NCBI GenBank assembly: GCA_016934455.1
Contig: JAFGSX010000275.1
Location: 1 to 33,569, forward strand
DNA length: 33,569 nt
DNA from: Deltaproteobacteria bacterium
Lineage (GTDB): Bacteria; Myxococcota; JACRCW01; JAFGSX01
Reading direction: 5' to 3'
Under the pieces are notes generated by a model. That model was not told where the DNA came from. It ran no database searches and was given only the letters and a program-made list of their open reading frames with translations. Positions 8,670 to 16,264 of this stretch are shown one piece after another (the stretch's first letter is position 1; every line of letters begins with the position of its first letter). The position numbers and the translations under genes were made by a program.

Positions 8670-9176
8670 TCAGACCTGGGTCTGCATCGTCTGCTTGACG
8701 CCGCTGGTGGCCTTTTCGACCACCTTGGACGTCAGCTCGAGCTCCTGCGAGTACTTGTAGACGCCAGCCTGGATCGCCAGCAGCTCCTGCTGGCCAAAGT
8801 GCCTGCCGCTGGTCGCCATCTTGATGATCTCGTCGAGCTTGTTCTGGCCATCGACGATGCCCGAGAGCATCTTTTTAAAGCCCTTGCCGGTGCCCTCCTT
8901 GCTGGCCTCGACCGACTTGACGCCGAGCGAGGTATCGGTGGCGTTGAGCTTGGCAGCCTGCAGCGTCTCGATCGCCTTGACCGGCGCCTCGACCTGGCGC
9001 ACGCCCTCGACCTGCTGCGGCCCCTGCGCGCCCTGCACCTGCTGCGCCTGCATCACGTCGTTGAACTTGTTGGGCTGCAGTTGCTGCTGCTGCTGGATCT
9101 GCTGCTGCGCTTGCTTCTGGATCTCCTCGACCATCTTGGCCGAGGCCTGACCCAAGCCGCCAACTGGATTTGCCAT
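8670..9176 (-). CDS. Candidate type III secretion inner rod protein (SctI/YscI/HrpB-like)
   Basis: C-terminus GQQELLAIQAGVYKYSQELELTSKVVEKATSGVKQTMQTQV matches the C-terminal pattern of YscI/HrpB inner rod proteins; Gln-rich N-terminal half; ATG at 9176. Confidence 0.7.
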   Translation of the reverse strand: MANPVGGLGQASAKMVEEIQKQAQQQIQQQQQLQPNKFNDVMQAQQVQGAQGPQQVEGVRQVEAPVKAIETLQAAKLNATDTSLGVKSVEASKEGTGKGFKKMLSGIVDGQNKLDEIIKMATSGRHFGQQELLAIQAGVYKYSQELELTSKVVEKATSGVKQTMQTQV

Positions 9177-9223
9177 GACCGCCTCCTCGGGGTGTCTCAC
9201 CCAGGCACCCGGGAACCACATCT

Positions 9224-9250
9224 ATTATCGGCCCGGCGCGCTGCAGGTTG
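9224..9250 (-). promoter_or_regulatory. Putative FliA/sigma-28-like promoter upstream of the SctI-like gene: CAAC-N14-GCCGATAAT
   Basis: Minus strand reads ...gagcagCAACctgcagcgcgccggGCCGATAATaga...; GCCGATAA equals the canonical FliA -10 consensus; -35 is non-canonical. Same CAAC-N16-CGATAAT arrangement at 11822-11848. Confidence 0.4.
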
Positions 9251-9324
9251 CTGCTCGGTCCGAGAAACTCCGTAATATATCCGATAAGTTATGATCCGCG
9301 TGCCAACATGAGGCAATGCTTGGA

Positions 9325-10149
9325 CTAATCGTTGTCGTGGATCAGCTCGCGCAGCAGCCGCGACAGCTTCTCGACCGCCTTGGCGTGCAGCCGCGAGGTC
9401 CAGCTCTTGGAGAGGCCGAGCGCGTCGCCGACCTCCTGCAGGCTCATCTCCTTGAAATAGTACATTTTGAGCAGCGTGCGCTCCTGCTCGGGCAGCCGCT
9501 CCAGCGCGTCGCGCACGTACTTCTTCATCTGCACGTCGCCGACCTTGATGTCGATCGGCTCGGCCTCGATGTCCGGAAGCTGCAGCCCCTCGATTCCCTC
9601 CAGGCTGGTGACGTAGATGGTGACCAGGTTCTGCACTGCCTCGGCCAGCTCGGTCACCTCGTCCTCGGCGCTCTTGCCCTCGTCTCCGACCGCGACCCGG
9701 TCGGCGACGTTGGTCAGGTAGGAGTTGGCGCGCTCCTCGAACCTGAAGCGCGCGTACTCGTTGCGCGATACCCACCCCATGTTGCGCAGCCCGTCGTAGA
9801 TGGCGCCGCGGATCCGGTAGTACGAAAAGGTCATGAAGTTGGCGCCAAAGCGCGGGTCGAAGCGGTTGGCGGCCTCGAGCAAACCGACCATGCCGTACTC
9901 GACCAGGTCGTCGAACTCGATCTCCTTGGCCAGGCTCTTCTTGACCTTGCCCGCGATCGAGCGCACGTAGGGCAGGTACTGATCGATCAAGTTCTGCTGG
10001 TTGACCTTGCCATTGGAACCGATGGCCGCCGGCCTCTCCTTGACCGAAGGCTGCGATTTCGATGGCGGCACCGACGCCACCGGGGGTTGGGCAGCGGGTG
10101 GCGCTGCGGGCTTGACACTGCCCTTTTTTCGGCTCGGTGCCGGGGTCAT
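9325..10149 (-). CDS. FliA/WhiG-type sigma-70 family RNA polymerase sigma factor
   Basis: LIDQYLPYVRSIAGKVKKSL...IEFDDLVEYGMVGLLEAANRFDPRFGANFMTFSYYRIRGAIYDGLR (region 2); LPEQERTLLKMYYFKEMSLQEVGDALGLSKSWTSRLHAKAVEKL (region 4). ATG 10149 or GTG 10158. Confidence 0.93.
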   Translation of the reverse strand: MTPAPSRKKGSVKPAAPPAAQPPVASVPPSKSQPSVKERPAAIGSNGKVNQQNLIDQYLPYVRSIAGKVKKSLAKEIEFDDLVEYGMVGLLEAANRFDPRFGANFMTFSYYRIRGAIYDGLRNMGWVSRNEYARFRFEERANSYLTNVADRVAVGDEGKSAEDEVTELAEAVQNLVTIYVTSLEGIEGLQLPDIEAEPIDIKVGDVQMKKYVRDALERLPEQERTLLKMYYFKEMSLQEVGDALGLSKSWTSRLHAKAVEKLSRLLRELIHDND

Positions 10150-10168
10150 CCGCTCCACCGCTTTGCGC

Positions 10169-10558
10169 TCACGACTTTGCCAGTCGCAGCAGTTGGCTGT
10201 GGATTTTTTGGGCCATCTCCTCGTCGCGCTCGATCAGGTCGGTGACCGACTCCTCCATGCGCTTGATGCCGTGGCCCTTGAGACCCTTGAACCGGTCGCG
10301 GATGACGGCCTTGACGAACCGCTTGGTGGTCTCGGACTTGTCCTGCTTGCCCTGGGCCAGCTCCTTGGCCACGCCCATCAGCTCGTCGAGCAAGGCCGAG
10401 CGCATATGCCGCACCAAGGCCTCGGTGGATTCGACCTCGCCCGCGCGCCCCACCATCTGCGCGAACTCGGTGCCGCGAACGCCCTTGGCGCCCCTGGCCT
10501 TGCCGGCGCCACCTGCCTTGGCGCCGCGCGTCGGACCCGAGGGGCGTCTGATCTGCAT
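10169..10558 (-). CDS. Basic hypothetical protein encoded immediately upstream of the sigma factor; possible T3SS accessory
   Basis: MQIRRPSGPTRGAKAGGAGKARG...TEALVRHMRSALLDELMGVAKEL...; basic N-terminus, helical C-terminal half; 19 bp from the sigma gene. Confidence 0.6.
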   Translation of the reverse strand: MQIRRPSGPTRGAKAGGAGKARGAKGVRGTEFAQMVGRAGEVESTEALVRHMRSALLDELMGVAKELAQGKQDKSETTKRFVKAVIRDRFKGLKGHGIKRMEESVTDLIERDEEMAQKIHSQLLRLAKS

Positions 10559-10641
10559 CGACAACTGGCTACCTCCCGTGCGCTCAGCGCAGTAGCTCTG
10601 GGAACCTGCGCCAGGTAGCGCTGCTGCCCTGGCTCGGCCTG

Positions 10642-10668
10642 ATCATCGCTCCCCCCCGCCGGTCGATG
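10642..10668 (-). promoter_or_regulatory. Weak third match to the shared element: CATC-N16-CGATGAT
   Basis: Minus strand ggCATCgaccggcgggggggagCGATGATc; same spacing as the other two sites with one mismatch in each half; 83 bp upstream of ATG 10558. Confidence 0.2.
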
Positions 10669-10697
10669 CCAGCAGACGCGCGCGCGTGGCGCCGCGG

Positions 10698-11120
10698 TCA
10701 GGGCAACTTTTCAAAACAGCCGACCTGGTGCGCCTCGATCAAGCTACGGGCGAAGTCGGCGGCCAGGCTCTTGGGCTCCATCTCGACGGCCGCCTTGAGC
10801 TCGGTCAGCGCCTCGTCGAACTTCTTGAGAAAGATCAGCGCCTCGCCGACGTGCGCGCGCGCCAGCGCCGAACCGGGGTTGACCCTGAGCCCCTCGCGGT
10901 GCGACTTGAGGGCCTGCTGGAACTTGCCCTGCGAGAAGTACATGTTGCCGAGGGCGACGTGCGGGATCTCGCTGTGCGGGATCAGCGACGCCACACCCAT
11001 GAAGACCTCGGCTGCCTCCTTGAACTTGTTGAGCTCCATGTACAGGTAGCCGGCCTCGAGGAGCAGCGCGACTTCGCTCTGCGGCACGTCGACGATGCCC
11101 TTGACGATGTACTCGCTCAT
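10698..11120 (-). CDS. TPR protein, LcrH/SycD-like class II type III chaperone candidate
   Basis: ALLLEAGYLYMELNKFKEAAEVFMGVASLIPHSEIPHVALGNMYFSQGKFQQALKSHREGLRVNPGSALARAHVGEALIFLKKFDEALTELKAAVEMEPKS: three TPRs in a small ~140 aa protein. Confidence 0.7.
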   Translation of the reverse strand: MSEYIVKGIVDVPQSEVALLLEAGYLYMELNKFKEAAEVFMGVASLIPHSEIPHVALGNMYFSQGKFQQALKSHREGLRVNPGSALARAHVGEALIFLKKFDEALTELKAAVEMEPKSLAADFARSLIEAHQVGCFEKLP

Positions 11121-11196
11121 TGCGGTCCCCGTCGCTGATACTGCGCTGGTCGCATTCTCCGGCAGAACCGTCATCGCAAACAAGGAAAAAAAGGGC

Positions 11197-11231
11197 AAAA
11201 AAAAGGCGGCGCCCGATGTGCGGGCGCCGCC
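11197..11231 (-). terminator. Strong rho-independent terminator downstream of the 11252-11761 gene
   Basis: Minus strand: GGCGGCGCCCG-cacat-CGGGCGCCGCC-TTTTTTTT; perfect 11-bp stem and 8 Ts. Confidence 0.9.
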
Positions 11232-11251
11232 CCGTTACCGCCAGAGACCGA

Positions 11252-11761
11252 CTACCGGACGTTGTTGATGGTCGACTTCGCCGTGTCGTGCTTGGTCTTC
11301 ATCACGTTCGAGATCGTCGTGAACTGACGATTCTCTCCCTGCATCTTCTCCTGCAGTTGCAGATACTGCAGCGAGAAGCTCATCTGCATCTCCTGCATCG
11401 CCTTGGTCTGGTCGAGCAACTGCTGCTGCGAGCCGGCCGAGCTGGTCGCGCCGGTCGAGGAGCCGGTGGGGTCGCTCATCGTGGGACCGGTGCCCGGGAT
11501 GTACTGGGTGCCGTCCGCGTTGTAGCCGCCGCCGGTGATCGAGCTGGCCGCGCCGTTGACGGCCGCCGAGACCACGGCGCCGCCTGGAACAAAGGGAGCA
11601 GCCACACTGGTCGCGCCTGCGACAGCGCCCGCGCCAGTGGCCACGCCGTTGCGCACCATAGTGCCAAAATCGGTCCGTGGAGTCTGACGCACCGTGGTGG
11701 TGCTAGAATCCAGTTGGACCGACCCTCCGCGCCCTGTTCCGGTGGTAGAAATGACACCCAT
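11252..11761 (-). CDS. Candidate T3SS-exported extracellular protein (filament/needle/translocator-like), function unassigned
   Basis: No Sec signal; Ser/Thr/Gly-rich N-terminus, central hydrophobic Ala/Gly/Val stretch, helical C-terminus QEMQMSFSLQYLQLQEKMQGENRQFTTISNVMKTKHDTAKSTINNVR. Confidence 0.55.
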   Translation of the reverse strand: MGVISTTGTGRGGSVQLDSSTTTVRQTPRTDFGTMVRNGVATGAGAVAGATSVAAPFVPGGAVVSAAVNGAASSITGGGYNADGTQYIPGTGPTMSDPTGSSTGATSSAGSQQQLLDQTKAMQEMQMSFSLQYLQLQEKMQGENRQFTTISNVMKTKHDTAKSTINNVR

Positions 11762-11821
11762 GGCTGGCTAACCTCCCTCCCGACTTCATTTGTCGGGACG
11801 TTATCCGTTGTCTACGTAACG

Positions 11822-11848
11822 ATTATCGCTGTGCCGGATGAACTGTTG
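11822..11848 (-). promoter_or_regulatory. Putative FliA/sigma-28-like promoter upstream of the 11252-11761 gene: CAAC-N14-AGCGATAAT
   Basis: Minus strand ggCAACagttcatccggcacAGCGATAATc; shares CAAC and CGATAAT at identical spacing with 9224-9250. Confidence 0.4.
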
Positions 11849-11888
11849 CCCCGATCTTTGACCGATGGCAGCGTTTTGGCGCACCCTG

Positions 11889-12224
11889 TCACTTGGGCGC
11901 TGGACCGGCCAGACCAGACTTGGTTTGCCAAAGAAATTCAAGGAGATCCTGCGTGCGCTCGTAGGCCGCGATGGCCTTGCGCACGGCCCCCTTGTCGCGC
12001 GCGTTGCCCGCCTCGGCCAGCGCCCGCAGCGCCTCCAGCCGCTGCTCTGGGCCGCTCCAGTCAAGCTTCTCCTGCTCGAGCAGCCGCTCGATGGTCGGAA
12101 AGCCGGCGCCGGTCGACTCGTCCCCGGCTGCGGGCTGGCCTTTCTTCTTCTTGCCGGCGGAGAGCGGAACCTTCTGGGCATCCGAGGCCTTGAACGTCTT
12201 GAGATCCTGCTTGGGCTTGGCCAT
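11889..12224 (-). CDS. Small Lys-rich hypothetical protein in the T3SS-like cluster
   Basis: MAKPKQDLKTFKASDAQKVPLSAGKKKKG...FPTIERLLEQEKLDWSGPEQRLEALRALAEAGNARDKGAVRKAIAAYERTQDLLEFLWQ; ATG at 12224. Confidence 0.65.
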   Translation of the reverse strand: MAKPKQDLKTFKASDAQKVPLSAGKKKKGQPAAGDESTGAGFPTIERLLEQEKLDWSGPEQRLEALRALAEAGNARDKGAVRKAIAAYERTQDLLEFLWQTKSGLAGPAPK

Positions 12225-13693: not shown

Positions 13694-14008
13694 TCAGTGC
13701 TGGTAGCGCAGGCGCACCGATCCGATCTGGATCTCGTCGCCGTGGCCGAGCACACGGTGGCCGCTGATTGGCTGGCCGTTGACCAGGGTGCCGGCCCGGC
13801 TGCCCAGATCCTCGATGAAGTAGCAGCCGTCGCGGTAGAAGAGCCGGGCATGCAGGCGCGACACGCTGCTGTCGTCGAGCGGCAGGTCGCTGTTGCTGAG
13901 GCGGCCGATCAGCACCTGGCGGTCGAACAGCGGGAATATCGCGCCCTGGCCCATTCCCTCGATGACGACCAATCGCGCGATCGTCAGGTTGTGGGTTTCG
14001 GACTGCAT
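13694..14008 (-). CDS. Single FHA-domain protein
   Basis: VLIGRLSNSDLPLDDSSVSRLHARLFYRDGCYFIEDLGSRAGTLVNGQPI: canonical FHA GR...SRxHA...N motifs. Confidence 0.93.
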   Translation of the reverse strand: MQSETHNLTIARLVVIEGMGQGAIFPLFDRQVLIGRLSNSDLPLDDSSVSRLHARLFYRDGCYFIEDLGSRAGTLVNGQPISGHRVLGHGDEIQIGSVRLRYQH

Positions 14009-14011
14009 CGG

Positions 14012-16264
14012 TTACCCGCCATGGGTGTAGAAGACCATGATCTTGAGCGGGGTCTGGAACTGAGGATTGTTGAGCTCGATGTTGAAGCGCTTGCCCGGCC
14101 CGAAGCCTATCGGCGTCTTGTCCCGTTGCCCGCCGCCGACGCTCACCAGGGTCCACGGGGTGGAGTCGAGACGCATCCGGATCTCGTCGCCGACGATCGT
14201 GTAGTCGAGCCTGATCCTGACCTCGACGCTGCCGCCGTAGACGTTGATGCGGCCTTTTTCGGCATACAACTGAAAGGCCTGGCTGCCGCGTCCGCTCCGG
14301 TTGCTGTGGCTCACCGTCAGTTCGCGCCCCGGGTTCACGGTGACCGTGCCGAGCGCGCGCTTGACCGGCGGCGGCTGGGTCACCGGTTGCCTGCCGTTGG
14401 AGCGGTCCGGGCTGCTGGCGCCGGTGTCTGGCCGCGCTGCATCGCGTCGGCTGTTCTTGACGACCGGCGGCGCCACCGCTGCATCCAGCAGCCTGACCGC
14501 TATGCGCGTCGACGCGGTATCCGGCCGCGCGCGCGCGGCGTCGGGGATGATAGGCGCCGCGATCGCGGTGGCGGTGTCGACGGCGAGCGACGCCGCATCC
14601 AGCGAGGAGAGCGCGATCGCTGCCGCGTCGTCGCCTTGGCTCCACGCCACCGCGGCGGCATCGGTCGCTGCGGCGACAAATCCGGCGTCGACTTGGACCG
14701 CGCTCGATGCGAGCTGTCGCCAGAGCGCCAGCGCCAGGACGACGGCGGCGATCGCGATGCCGGTCCCGACCATCAGCGGAAGCAGGCGCGCCTTGGGTTG
14801 CGCCAGCGGCTGGCTCAGGTCGTAGGCGTCGAGCGGGCTGCCGGTCTTGGCGGCCGTGGCCTTGGCCGCCAGTGCGTCGTAGGCCCGGGTCTCCTCGCCG
14901 CTGACCGGCACGGCGTTGGTCGGCTTGGTCGTCTCGTCGCGCGGGGCGATCTCGTTGACCGGCTTGGTCGCCTCCTCGTGGTGGAGGGGCGGCGAGGCTC
15001 GCACCAGCTTGGCTGCTGCCGCGGCGTCCATCGGCACCGTGCGCAGCTCGGGGTCGAAATCCGACTCCTGTTCAGACGGGATCGGATGCTTGGCGCTGTC
15101 GGCGAAGACGTCGGAGATCGCTATGTCGACTTCGGCCACGTCGAGGCCGCGGGTGGGAGCGGCCTCGTCGACCAGGTCGATGACGTGCGCGGAGGGGTCG
15201 GAGCGCGCCAGCCGGGTCGGATCGTCGCCGCCGGTCCGTCGGCGGTCGGTGACCGGCTTGCGCACCAGGCTGCGGCCGATGCCGGAGCCGGTCTCGAGCA
15301 GCACCTGGCGGTCCTCGGCGATGCAGTCCGCGAACAGATCCTCGAGGTACTCGCTGAGGCTGCGCTTCTCGCGGCGGACGGCGCCGTCGAGCAGCAGCCG
15401 ATCGAGATCCTCCCGCATGCCGGTGCAGTCGCTGTAGCGGCGGTTGCGGTCCTTGGCAAAACCCTTTTTCAGGATGGCGTCGAACGGCGCCGCGTCCTCG
15501 CGGTACTTGGCGACCGGCGACGGATCCTTGCGCTGGATCGCCTCCAGCGAGAGCACGATGTTGTCGCGGTGGAACGGGTTGAAGCCGGCCAGCATCTCGT
15601 ACAGCACGATGGTGAGAGAGAAGATGTCCGAGCGCTTGTCGAGCGGCTCGGCGGCGCTCTGCTCGGGCGACATGTAGACGAACTTGCCCTTGATGGTTCC
15701 GGTCTCGGTCTTGTTGACCGACATCGTGCTCTTGGCGATGCCGAAGTCGATGATCTTGAGGTCGCCTGCGTAGGAGATCAGCAGGTTGTGCGGGTTGATG
15801 TCGCGGTGGATGATGTTGAGCGGCTCATGCGCGGCGTCGGCCAGATTGTGCGAGTAGGAGAGGCCGGAGCAGGCCTGGCCGATGGCGTCGACGACGTAGG
15901 CGAGCGGGATCGGCGTCTGCCTCTTGTAGGCGCGTGTGATGACGTCCTTGATCGAGCGGCCGTGCACGTACTCCATGGCGATGTAGAGGTGCTCGTCGAC
16001 CTCTCCCATGTCGTAGACCTGCACCACGTTGGAGTGGCTGAGCATCGCCGCGATGCGGGCCTCGCTGAAGAACATGTCGACGTACTGCTTGTTGTCGAGG
16101 TGGTGCTGCAGGATGCGCTTGATGACCAGGATCTTCTCGAAACCGACCGGACCGGATTGCTTGGCCAGGAAGATCTCGCCCATGCCGCCCGAGGCGAGCT
16201 TTTTGAGCAGCAGGAACTTGCCGAAGCGGGTACCGACGCCAGATTGTTGATCCGACCCCGACAT
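14012..16264 (-). CDS. Membrane-associated Hanks-type Ser/Thr protein kinase
   Basis: LASGGMGEIFLAK, ILVIKRIL (Lys), IIHRDINPHNLL (HRD), KIIDFGIAK (DFG), GKFVYMSPEQ (APE-like); TM LLPLMVGTGIAIAAVVLALALW. Confidence 0.95.
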   Translation of the reverse strand: MSGSDQQSGVGTRFGKFLLLKKLASGGMGEIFLAKQSGPVGFEKILVIKRILQHHLDNKQYVDMFFSEARIAAMLSHSNVVQVYDMGEVDEHLYIAMEYVHGRSIKDVITRAYKRQTPIPLAYVVDAIGQACSGLSYSHNLADAAHEPLNIIHRDINPHNLLISYAGDLKIIDFGIAKSTMSVNKTETGTIKGKFVYMSPEQSAAEPLDKRSDIFSLTIVLYEMLAGFNPFHRDNIVLSLEAIQRKDPSPVAKYREDAAPFDAILKKGFAKDRNRRYSDCTGMREDLDRLLLDGAVRREKRSLSEYLEDLFADCIAEDRQVLLETGSGIGRSLVRKPVTDRRRTGGDDPTRLARSDPSAHVIDLVDEAAPTRGLDVAEVDIAISDVFADSAKHPIPSEQESDFDPELRTVPMDAAAAAKLVRASPPLHHEEATKPVNEIAPRDETTKPTNAVPVSGEETRAYDALAAKATAAKTGSPLDAYDLSQPLAQPKARLLPLMVGTGIAIAAVVLALALWRQLASSAVQVDAGFVAAATDAAAVAWSQGDDAAAIALSSLDAASLAVDTATAIAAPIIPDAARARPDTASTRIAVRLLDAAVAPPVVKNSRRDAARPDTGASSPDRSNGRQPVTQPPPVKRALGTVTVNPGRELTVSHSNRSGRGSQAFQLYAEKGRINVYGGSVEVRIRLDYTIVGDEIRMRLDSTPWTLVSVGGGQRDKTPIGFGPGKRFNIELNNPQFQTPLKIMVFYTHGG

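Follow-up and report, generated by a model that had tools for sequence, protein, structure and literature searches.

Which system do the six consecutive genes at positions 8670-12224 of this contig serve? The window, i.e. the whole stretch of DNA analysed here, comprises 33,569 nt, and all six open reading frames (ORFs) of the module lie on its minus strand: p110, p169, a gene for a tetratricopeptide repeat (TPR) protein, p131, a FliA/WhiG-family sigma factor gene and a gene for an SctI-like inner-rod protein (sctI). A first-pass annotation, made from the DNA letters, had read them as an orphan set of accessory and late genes of a non-flagellar type III secretion system (NF-T3SS). All six ORFs were found at the places it gave. 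Our results indicate that the module is probably the late part of the NF-T3SS of Myxococcota, split from its core genes in the host genome. This assignment to a late module, which agrees with the first-pass annotation, is based on synteny with sctJ/N/O/P/Q/R/S/T/U, on co-occurrence with FHIPEP (SctV/FlhA) and on the presence of a T3SS core elsewhere in the same assembly.

The myxococcal NF-T3SS was described by Abby and Rocha in 2012 (PMC3459982) and goes by the name of T3SS* in work on predation (PMC10433427, PMC12075869). It was placed basal in the evolution of injectisomes, and SctF was inferred to have been lost (PMC3459982). In myxobacteria, T3SS* is required for prey lysis and is regarded as needleless, its effectors being unknown (PMC10433427, PMC12075869). 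SctI has already been reported for it (PMC10433427, PMC3459982); new here is the SctF-homologous helix with which p169 ends. Full-text literature searches (to 2025, without the original 2022 T3SS* paper) returned neither an SctF homologue nor a CAAC-N16-CGATAA promoter for myxobacteria.

Gene order and core genes

Chance cannot plausibly account for the gene set, whose six-gene order recurs in distant Myxococcota. In relatives from several Myxococcota families (L074, L086 and L124/L125) the module was contiguous with the core, in the order p110-p169-TPR-(p131)-sigma-SctI-SctJ-...-SctN-O-P-Q-R-S-T-U, and part of this arrangement was found in L084, L068/L069, L070, L071 and L180/L181. Loci L005 and L008 both displayed p169, TPR, p131 and sigma genes, accompanied in L008 by p110. 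A second locus type (L127 and L137) displayed the order p169-SctI-SctJ-...-Q-R-S-T-U-V. The SctV beside the module in L069 scored 823 bits with the hrcV model (cut-off 692) and stayed below the cut-off of FlhA.

In the part of the window whose ORFs were examined (5-17 kb), no export-gate, ring, ATPase or secretin genes occurred, as the first-pass annotation had remarked. The term 'orphan' had to be abandoned, since the rest of the system lies elsewhere in the assembly, an 82% complete bin of 613 contigs. An orphan module had been suspected from the absence of FHIPEP and was ruled out by SctR, SctU and SctJ on other contigs. One of them (C334) encodes SctN, an SctO-like and an SctP-like protein (the latter with FliK and HpaP domain matches), SctQ, SctR, SctS, SctT and an FHA protein. 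Another (C322) encodes SctU together with an LcrH-like chaperone and a protein of 400 aa. On a third (C457), the gene for an SctJ-type lipoprotein directly precedes a FliG-like one. With NCBIfam models, SctN (613 bits, cut-off 604.75), SctR (220.6, cut-off 208.6) and SctU (366, cut-off 358) were assigned to the T3SS type, the flagellar models remaining below their own cut-offs. SctS exceeded both the T3SS and the flagellar cut-offs, and SctT fell under both, nearer to FliR. The FliG-like protein (L221, 126-1193, contig C457; 3.7e-5) is worth recording separately: the pair of SctJ-type and FliG-like genes recurs in other Myxococcota. Myxococcal systems are said in the literature to lack FliG.

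The SctI-like protein

The last gene of the module (8670-9176, minus strand) encodes a protein of 168 aa with C-terminus ELTSKVVEKATSGVKQTMQTQV. Its reading as an SctI-like inner rod held at the level of the family, but not for the window protein by itself. The latter matched Pfam YscI with E 0.03 (its residues 96-167 aligned to positions 25-94 of the 94-position profile) and NCBIfam SctI with E 0.016 (15.3 bits, cut-off 39), i.e. weakly and below both cut-offs. Among its relatives, NCBIfam SctI was the commonest match (23 of 38 members, best 4e-4), and two members weakly matched the CT668 family. A FliE identity was also considered; it was not favoured, the match being weak and below cut-off (E 0.087) against the 23 of 38 members that matched SctI. 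Comparison of alignments revealed no mutual similarity between the SctI family and the needle-tailed families (p169 and the 76-aa proteins, see below).

Close relatives were found in Myxococcota and delta-proteobacterial bins when a genome collection covering bacteria and archaea was searched, and in these the last 20 residues were invariant. The two C-terminal motifs quoted in the first-pass annotation, one in the SctI-like protein and one in the helical-tail protein p169, are indeed present and were almost invariant in distant relatives as well. In relatives with an intact cluster sctI adjoins sctJ, which is not the case in the window itself.

The SctI-like gene co-occurred with the export gate. 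Across the 191 Myxococcota genomes surveyed, the SctI family occurred in 153, the p169 family in 154 and FHIPEP in 161. The SctI-like gene was present in 149 of the 161 genomes with FHIPEP and in four of the 30 without it (P 7e-19, phylogeny not corrected); put the other way, 149 of the 153 genomes with this gene also carried FHIPEP. Three of the four exceptions, the host genome included, have SctR and SctU. T3SS core genes are found both in the host and in its relatives, and neither of the two findings by which the first-pass annotation would have been refuted (no YscI/HrpB profile hit of the SctI-like protein, no core genes in this or related genomes) was made.

The C-terminus of p169

Gene p169 (11252-11761, minus strand) had been put forward as coding for a candidate secreted structural protein. 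It can now be named more closely: its conserved C-terminal helix is, as judged by profile comparison, homologous to SctF needle subunits, and its gene has a promoter-like element in common with sctI. The comparison involved a family of 76-aa proteins, several tandem genes of which lie in the T3SS* cluster of L069. Five of its 16 members matched Pfam T3SS_needle_F, every other family being matched by at most one member. The family profile retrieved chain F of PDB entry 7Y6C (6e-4), which contains, as EscE-EsaG33-73-EsaH, a fragment of the needle protein EsaG (PMC9426511). We infer that chain F is the EsaG fragment, since its 43 residues fit EsaG only, though the printed chain name says co-chaperone. 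The C-terminal 38 residues of p169 aligned with the 76-aa family in the same register and to the last residue (hhalign probability 97.4%). The alignment score of 53.7 compares with a maximum of 19.3 in 200 column shuffles and with 13.8 upon reversal; column rotation is no control, as it merely moves the same columns. Copies of the 76-aa genes, tandem or dispersed, numbered two to eight per Myxococcaceae genome (L169, L171, L172 and others).

Within the p169 family, T3SS_needle_F was matched by four of 30 members (best 1.1e-3), HrpA pilin by three and III_needle by two of 30. The least biased test of a needle relationship was a scan of six reading frames of the surveyed genomes with T3SS_needle_F at E<=0.1, which gave matches in 69 genomes and in one of 14 controls. 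Among the 93 matches listed, at least 23 fell on p169 genes, and 13 had an FHIPEP gene within 5 kb. In nearly all of the matched proteins that were examined, the tail forms the C-terminus, with no more than one or two residues between it and the stop codon. The tail-bearing proteins examined span 89-560 aa, and one of them (genome G078) passed the Pfam needle cut-off. SctF subunits are helical hairpins of about 80-90 aa; at 169 aa, p169 fails this size criterion and was for this reason filed as needle-tailed rather than as SctF.

The host genome encodes six tail proteins, namely p169 and five larger ones of about 370-560 aa (L177 2823-4022, L182, L184, L185 and L186), one of which adjoins sctU and an LcrH gene. 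Four of the five large ones share a coiled-coil stretch before the tail or a glycine-rich region.

Promoter-like element and candidate regulon

Two promoter-like elements of the form CAAC-N16-CGATAA were found in the module on the minus strand, one before sctI (9225-9250) and one before p169 (11823-11848), and the same element with the same spacing precedes their orthologues. CGATAA was enriched upstream of both genes: it was present in 12 of 17 and in 11 of 13 regions, where 0.59 and 0.45 occurrences were expected. Of the 25 regions inspected, which had been picked after this enrichment had been seen, 23 had CAAC followed, after exactly 16 bases, by CGATA. Pattern CAACN{16,17}CGATAW matched the window only twice, each time in front of sctI or p169, where 0.06 matches were expected, and none of 100 shuffles reached two. 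The region upstream of p110 is devoid of the element, and a scan for sigma-70-type promoters found nothing upstream of the module genes.

In the whole host genome the pattern occurred 22 times, against six for its reversed form, and about a quarter of these sites may be due to chance. Genes downstream of the element are sctI, p169, the SctP-like gene and, by sctU, genes for 151-aa and 400-aa proteins. Further ones encode a 310-aa protein and a 369-aa tail protein. Outside the core, the element precedes genes for a LysM-GH46-M23 protein, for a C39 peptidase-like protein and, next to an LcrH gene, for a DUF1521 protein. Many tail genes of other genomes have the element upstream.

The consensus for the -10 element of sigma-28 is GCCGATAA. 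The -10-like part of the present element, CGATAA, resembles it, which makes the FliA-like sigma factor of the module a natural candidate reader. The genes listed above would then probably form a late-gene regulon read by the adjacent sigma factor.

Several products of this putative regulon were inspected. The LysM-GH46-M23 protein (L246 2-1822, contig C274) is an open-ended protein of 607 aa with three LysM domains, a GH46-like domain and an M23 peptidase domain, and without evident signal peptide. It is a candidate T3SS substrate lytic for prey walls. The C39-family peptidase-like protein (L247 205-1074, contig C61) has 290 aa, an element upstream and likewise no evident signal peptide. DUF1521 proteins adjoin LcrH-like chaperone genes at L248 3794-5721 (contig C291) and L069 6793-7842. 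DUF1521 also occurs in the NopE proteins, which Bradyrhizobium secretes through its T3SS (PMC6506597). The two DUF1521 proteins are candidate effectors, one of them within a T3SS* cluster.

An intrinsic terminator (11203-11233, minus strand; 13-pair stem and T run, z -3.9) lies 3' of p169. In a simple scan a hairpin with T run was found at this place in 11 of 16 orthologue loci, the window included. From this terminator p169 is predicted to be a transcription unit of its own, its strong terminator befitting a highly expressed single gene.

Other genes of the module

The TPR protein (10698-11120, minus strand, 140 aa) had been called a small LcrH-like chaperone. Its resemblance to LcrH stood, as it matched LcrH_SycD (4e-7), CdsG (1.8e-5) and SctY (3.5e-5), and these models were matched by 17, 15 and 14 of the 17 family members, respectively. 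Assignment by score did not, since LcrH_SycD reached 29.7 bits (cut-off 104.8) and CdsG 25 (cut-off 170), generic TPR families scored higher and a PDB profile search with the TPR alignment retrieved generic TPR proteins only. The genomic context nevertheless supports a candidate role as LcrH-type chaperone.

The sigma factor (9325-10158, minus strand, 277 aa, GTG start) proved to be of the flagellar type that had been announced. Its Sigma70 regions 2 and 4 were above cut-off, and the best match out of 94 families was FliA_WhiG (3.5e-45; 154.5 bits, under the cut-off of 189.6). Gene p131 (10169-10564, minus strand), located between the chaperone and sigma genes, is conserved, with homologues at the equivalent place in relatives, and matched no family in profile scans. 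The small conserved protein p110 (11889-12224, minus strand) belongs to a family of 19 sequences without Pfam or PDB match or profile similarity to known families; by its position it could be a co-chaperone. Upstream of the module (13694-16264), the window carries genes for an FHA-domain protein and a Ser/Thr kinase, which are common in Myxococcota.

Proposed mechanism and alternatives

How might these products work together? The FliA-like sigma factor would read the CAAC-N16-CGATAA promoters and so turn on the late genes: sctI, p169, the ruler-like sctP and, at other places in the genome, genes for further substrates. Until p169 leaves through the SctRSTUV gate, its C-terminal helix would be kept in the cytoplasm by the TPR protein, in the way that YscG and EsaH act on the needle C-terminus. 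SctI would make the inner rod at the gate and the SctJ ring, onto which p169 would add an SctF-like axial structure; since no secretin is known, this structure may be short or periplasmic. A more far-reaching reading, which we consider somewhat less likely than not, is that predatory Myxococcota have a T3SS* that does not lack a needle. It would build an axial structure from a family of SctF-helix proteins, and a dedicated sigma-28-like factor would co-express this family with the rod, the ruler and candidate substrates that degrade prey walls. The family would consist of the near-universal p169, of short tandem copies in Myxococcaceae and of large variants elsewhere, and its shared helix may be likened to the end helices common to flagellar rod, hook and filament proteins. 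A part in predation and prey lysis would follow from the known role of T3SS*.

Several observations weigh against the proposed mechanism or against the assignment of the module as such. No window protein passed an SctI or SctF cut-off on its own in the profile scans, and SctV (FHIPEP) was not found in the host bin, which the missing 18% of its sequence can explain. PDB profile searches with the SctI and p169 alignments retrieved no T3SS protein. AlphaFold2 models of the SctI-like protein and p169, for which only three and seven sequences could be used, were of little help: that of SctI was too poor for a fold search, and that of p169, of low confidence, displayed one long C-terminal helix (108-168) with the first half disordered and gave nothing in a fold search. 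T3SS_needle_F found nothing in the host genome at E<=0.1, so that the p169 of the window remained unmatched, and the commonest Pfam match of the p169 family was the unrelated helical Arg_decarb_HB (nine of 30 members). Moreover, p169 has about twice the length of a needle subunit, with a moderately hydrophobic stretch, and the same tail ends much larger proteins, hence it need not mean 'needle'.

These last points lead to the alternatives. As a translocator or tip protein of the same T3SS module, p169 would have the TPR protein as its class II chaperone and insert its hydrophobic N-terminal half into membranes, the tail merely docking on the export channel or the chaperone. The LcrH_SycD matches throughout the TPR family would suit this well, as would the conserved stretch VAAPFVPGGAVVSAAV of p169 (maximal 19-residue hydropathy 1.5) and the occurrence of needle-type tails on proteins of such different sizes, with an LcrH-like neighbour at 17 of 30 loci and none in a 70 kb control. 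However, p169 matched no translocator profile and is near universal, whereas the large tail proteins are variable. Needle genes directly precede sctI and sctJ in other T3SSs, and this is exactly the place of p169 in the second locus type; we consider the translocator rather unlikely. Less probable still is a tail acting as generic signal for export or chaperone recognition, p169 and the other tail proteins being effectors of a system truly without axial structure. Such a signal would account for the many proteins, otherwise unrelated, that have the tail at their very C-terminus and for the promoter-like element shared by several tail-type genes. Yet it is the needle family, and not known export signals, that the tail matches, with the C-terminal register preserved; the 76-aa proteins consist of little beyond it; and a ruler-like SctP gene and an inner rod have been retained. 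Finally, a degenerate or flagellar remnant, with a FliE-like rod protein and a sigma factor left over from a lost flagellum, is very improbable. It draws on the weak FliE match of the SctI-like protein, on the FliA affiliation of the sigma factor and on the better scores of host SctS and SctT with FliQ/FliR models, but host SctN, SctR and SctU are of the T3SS type, SctI is favoured in the family scan, and the strong conservation together with the preserved promoter-like elements across the phylum argues against decay.

Needle-tailed proteins conserved in the phylum, encoded beside sctI and sharing its promoter-like element, would change the views of a needleless system and of SctF loss. They make the exit of substrates from the predator testable, and the element yields a first list of candidate substrates, including the LysM-GH46-M23 protein and the C39 peptidase.

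Comparison with known systems

A parallel in gene order is offered by the SctE-SctF-SctG sets (YscE-YscF-YscG, PscE-F-G and EscE-EsaG-EsaH), where a small protein, a needle protein and a TPR protein are encoded consecutively upstream of sctI, as are p110, p169 and the TPR protein here. In these sets the TPR chaperone binds the C-terminal helix of the needle (PMC3084799, PMC9426511). The present module departs from them in the 169 aa of p169, in the absence of profile similarity for p110 and in the p131 and sigma genes that separate chaperone and rod genes.

In chlamydiae the corresponding order is cdsE-cdsF-cdsG-CT668. Likeness to this cluster was seen in profile matches, namely the CdsG matches of the TPR family and the weak CT668 matches of two SctI members, and the chlamydial cluster is without sigma factor. 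Such a factor recalls instead the flagellar class 3 control by FliA (sigma-28), with which the module shares a FliA-family sigma factor, the CGATAA -10-like part and the presence of rod and ruler genes in the controlled set. The -35-like part, CAAC, is different, and the putative target is a non-flagellar T3SS.

As for the T3SS* of M. xanthus (MXAN_2434-2464), the sampled Myxococcaceae-like genomes displayed the same kinds of genes, namely those for SctI, SctJ, SctN, SctQ, SctRSTUV, LcrH-type chaperones and an FHA/SctD-like protein, a correspondence that is one of gene content only. In the host genome, unlike M. xanthus, late module and core are separated. The other difference concerns the needle: T3SS* was described without a needle homologue, whereas p169 and the 76-aa proteins found in such clusters are, by their C-terminal helices, putative homologues of needle subunits.

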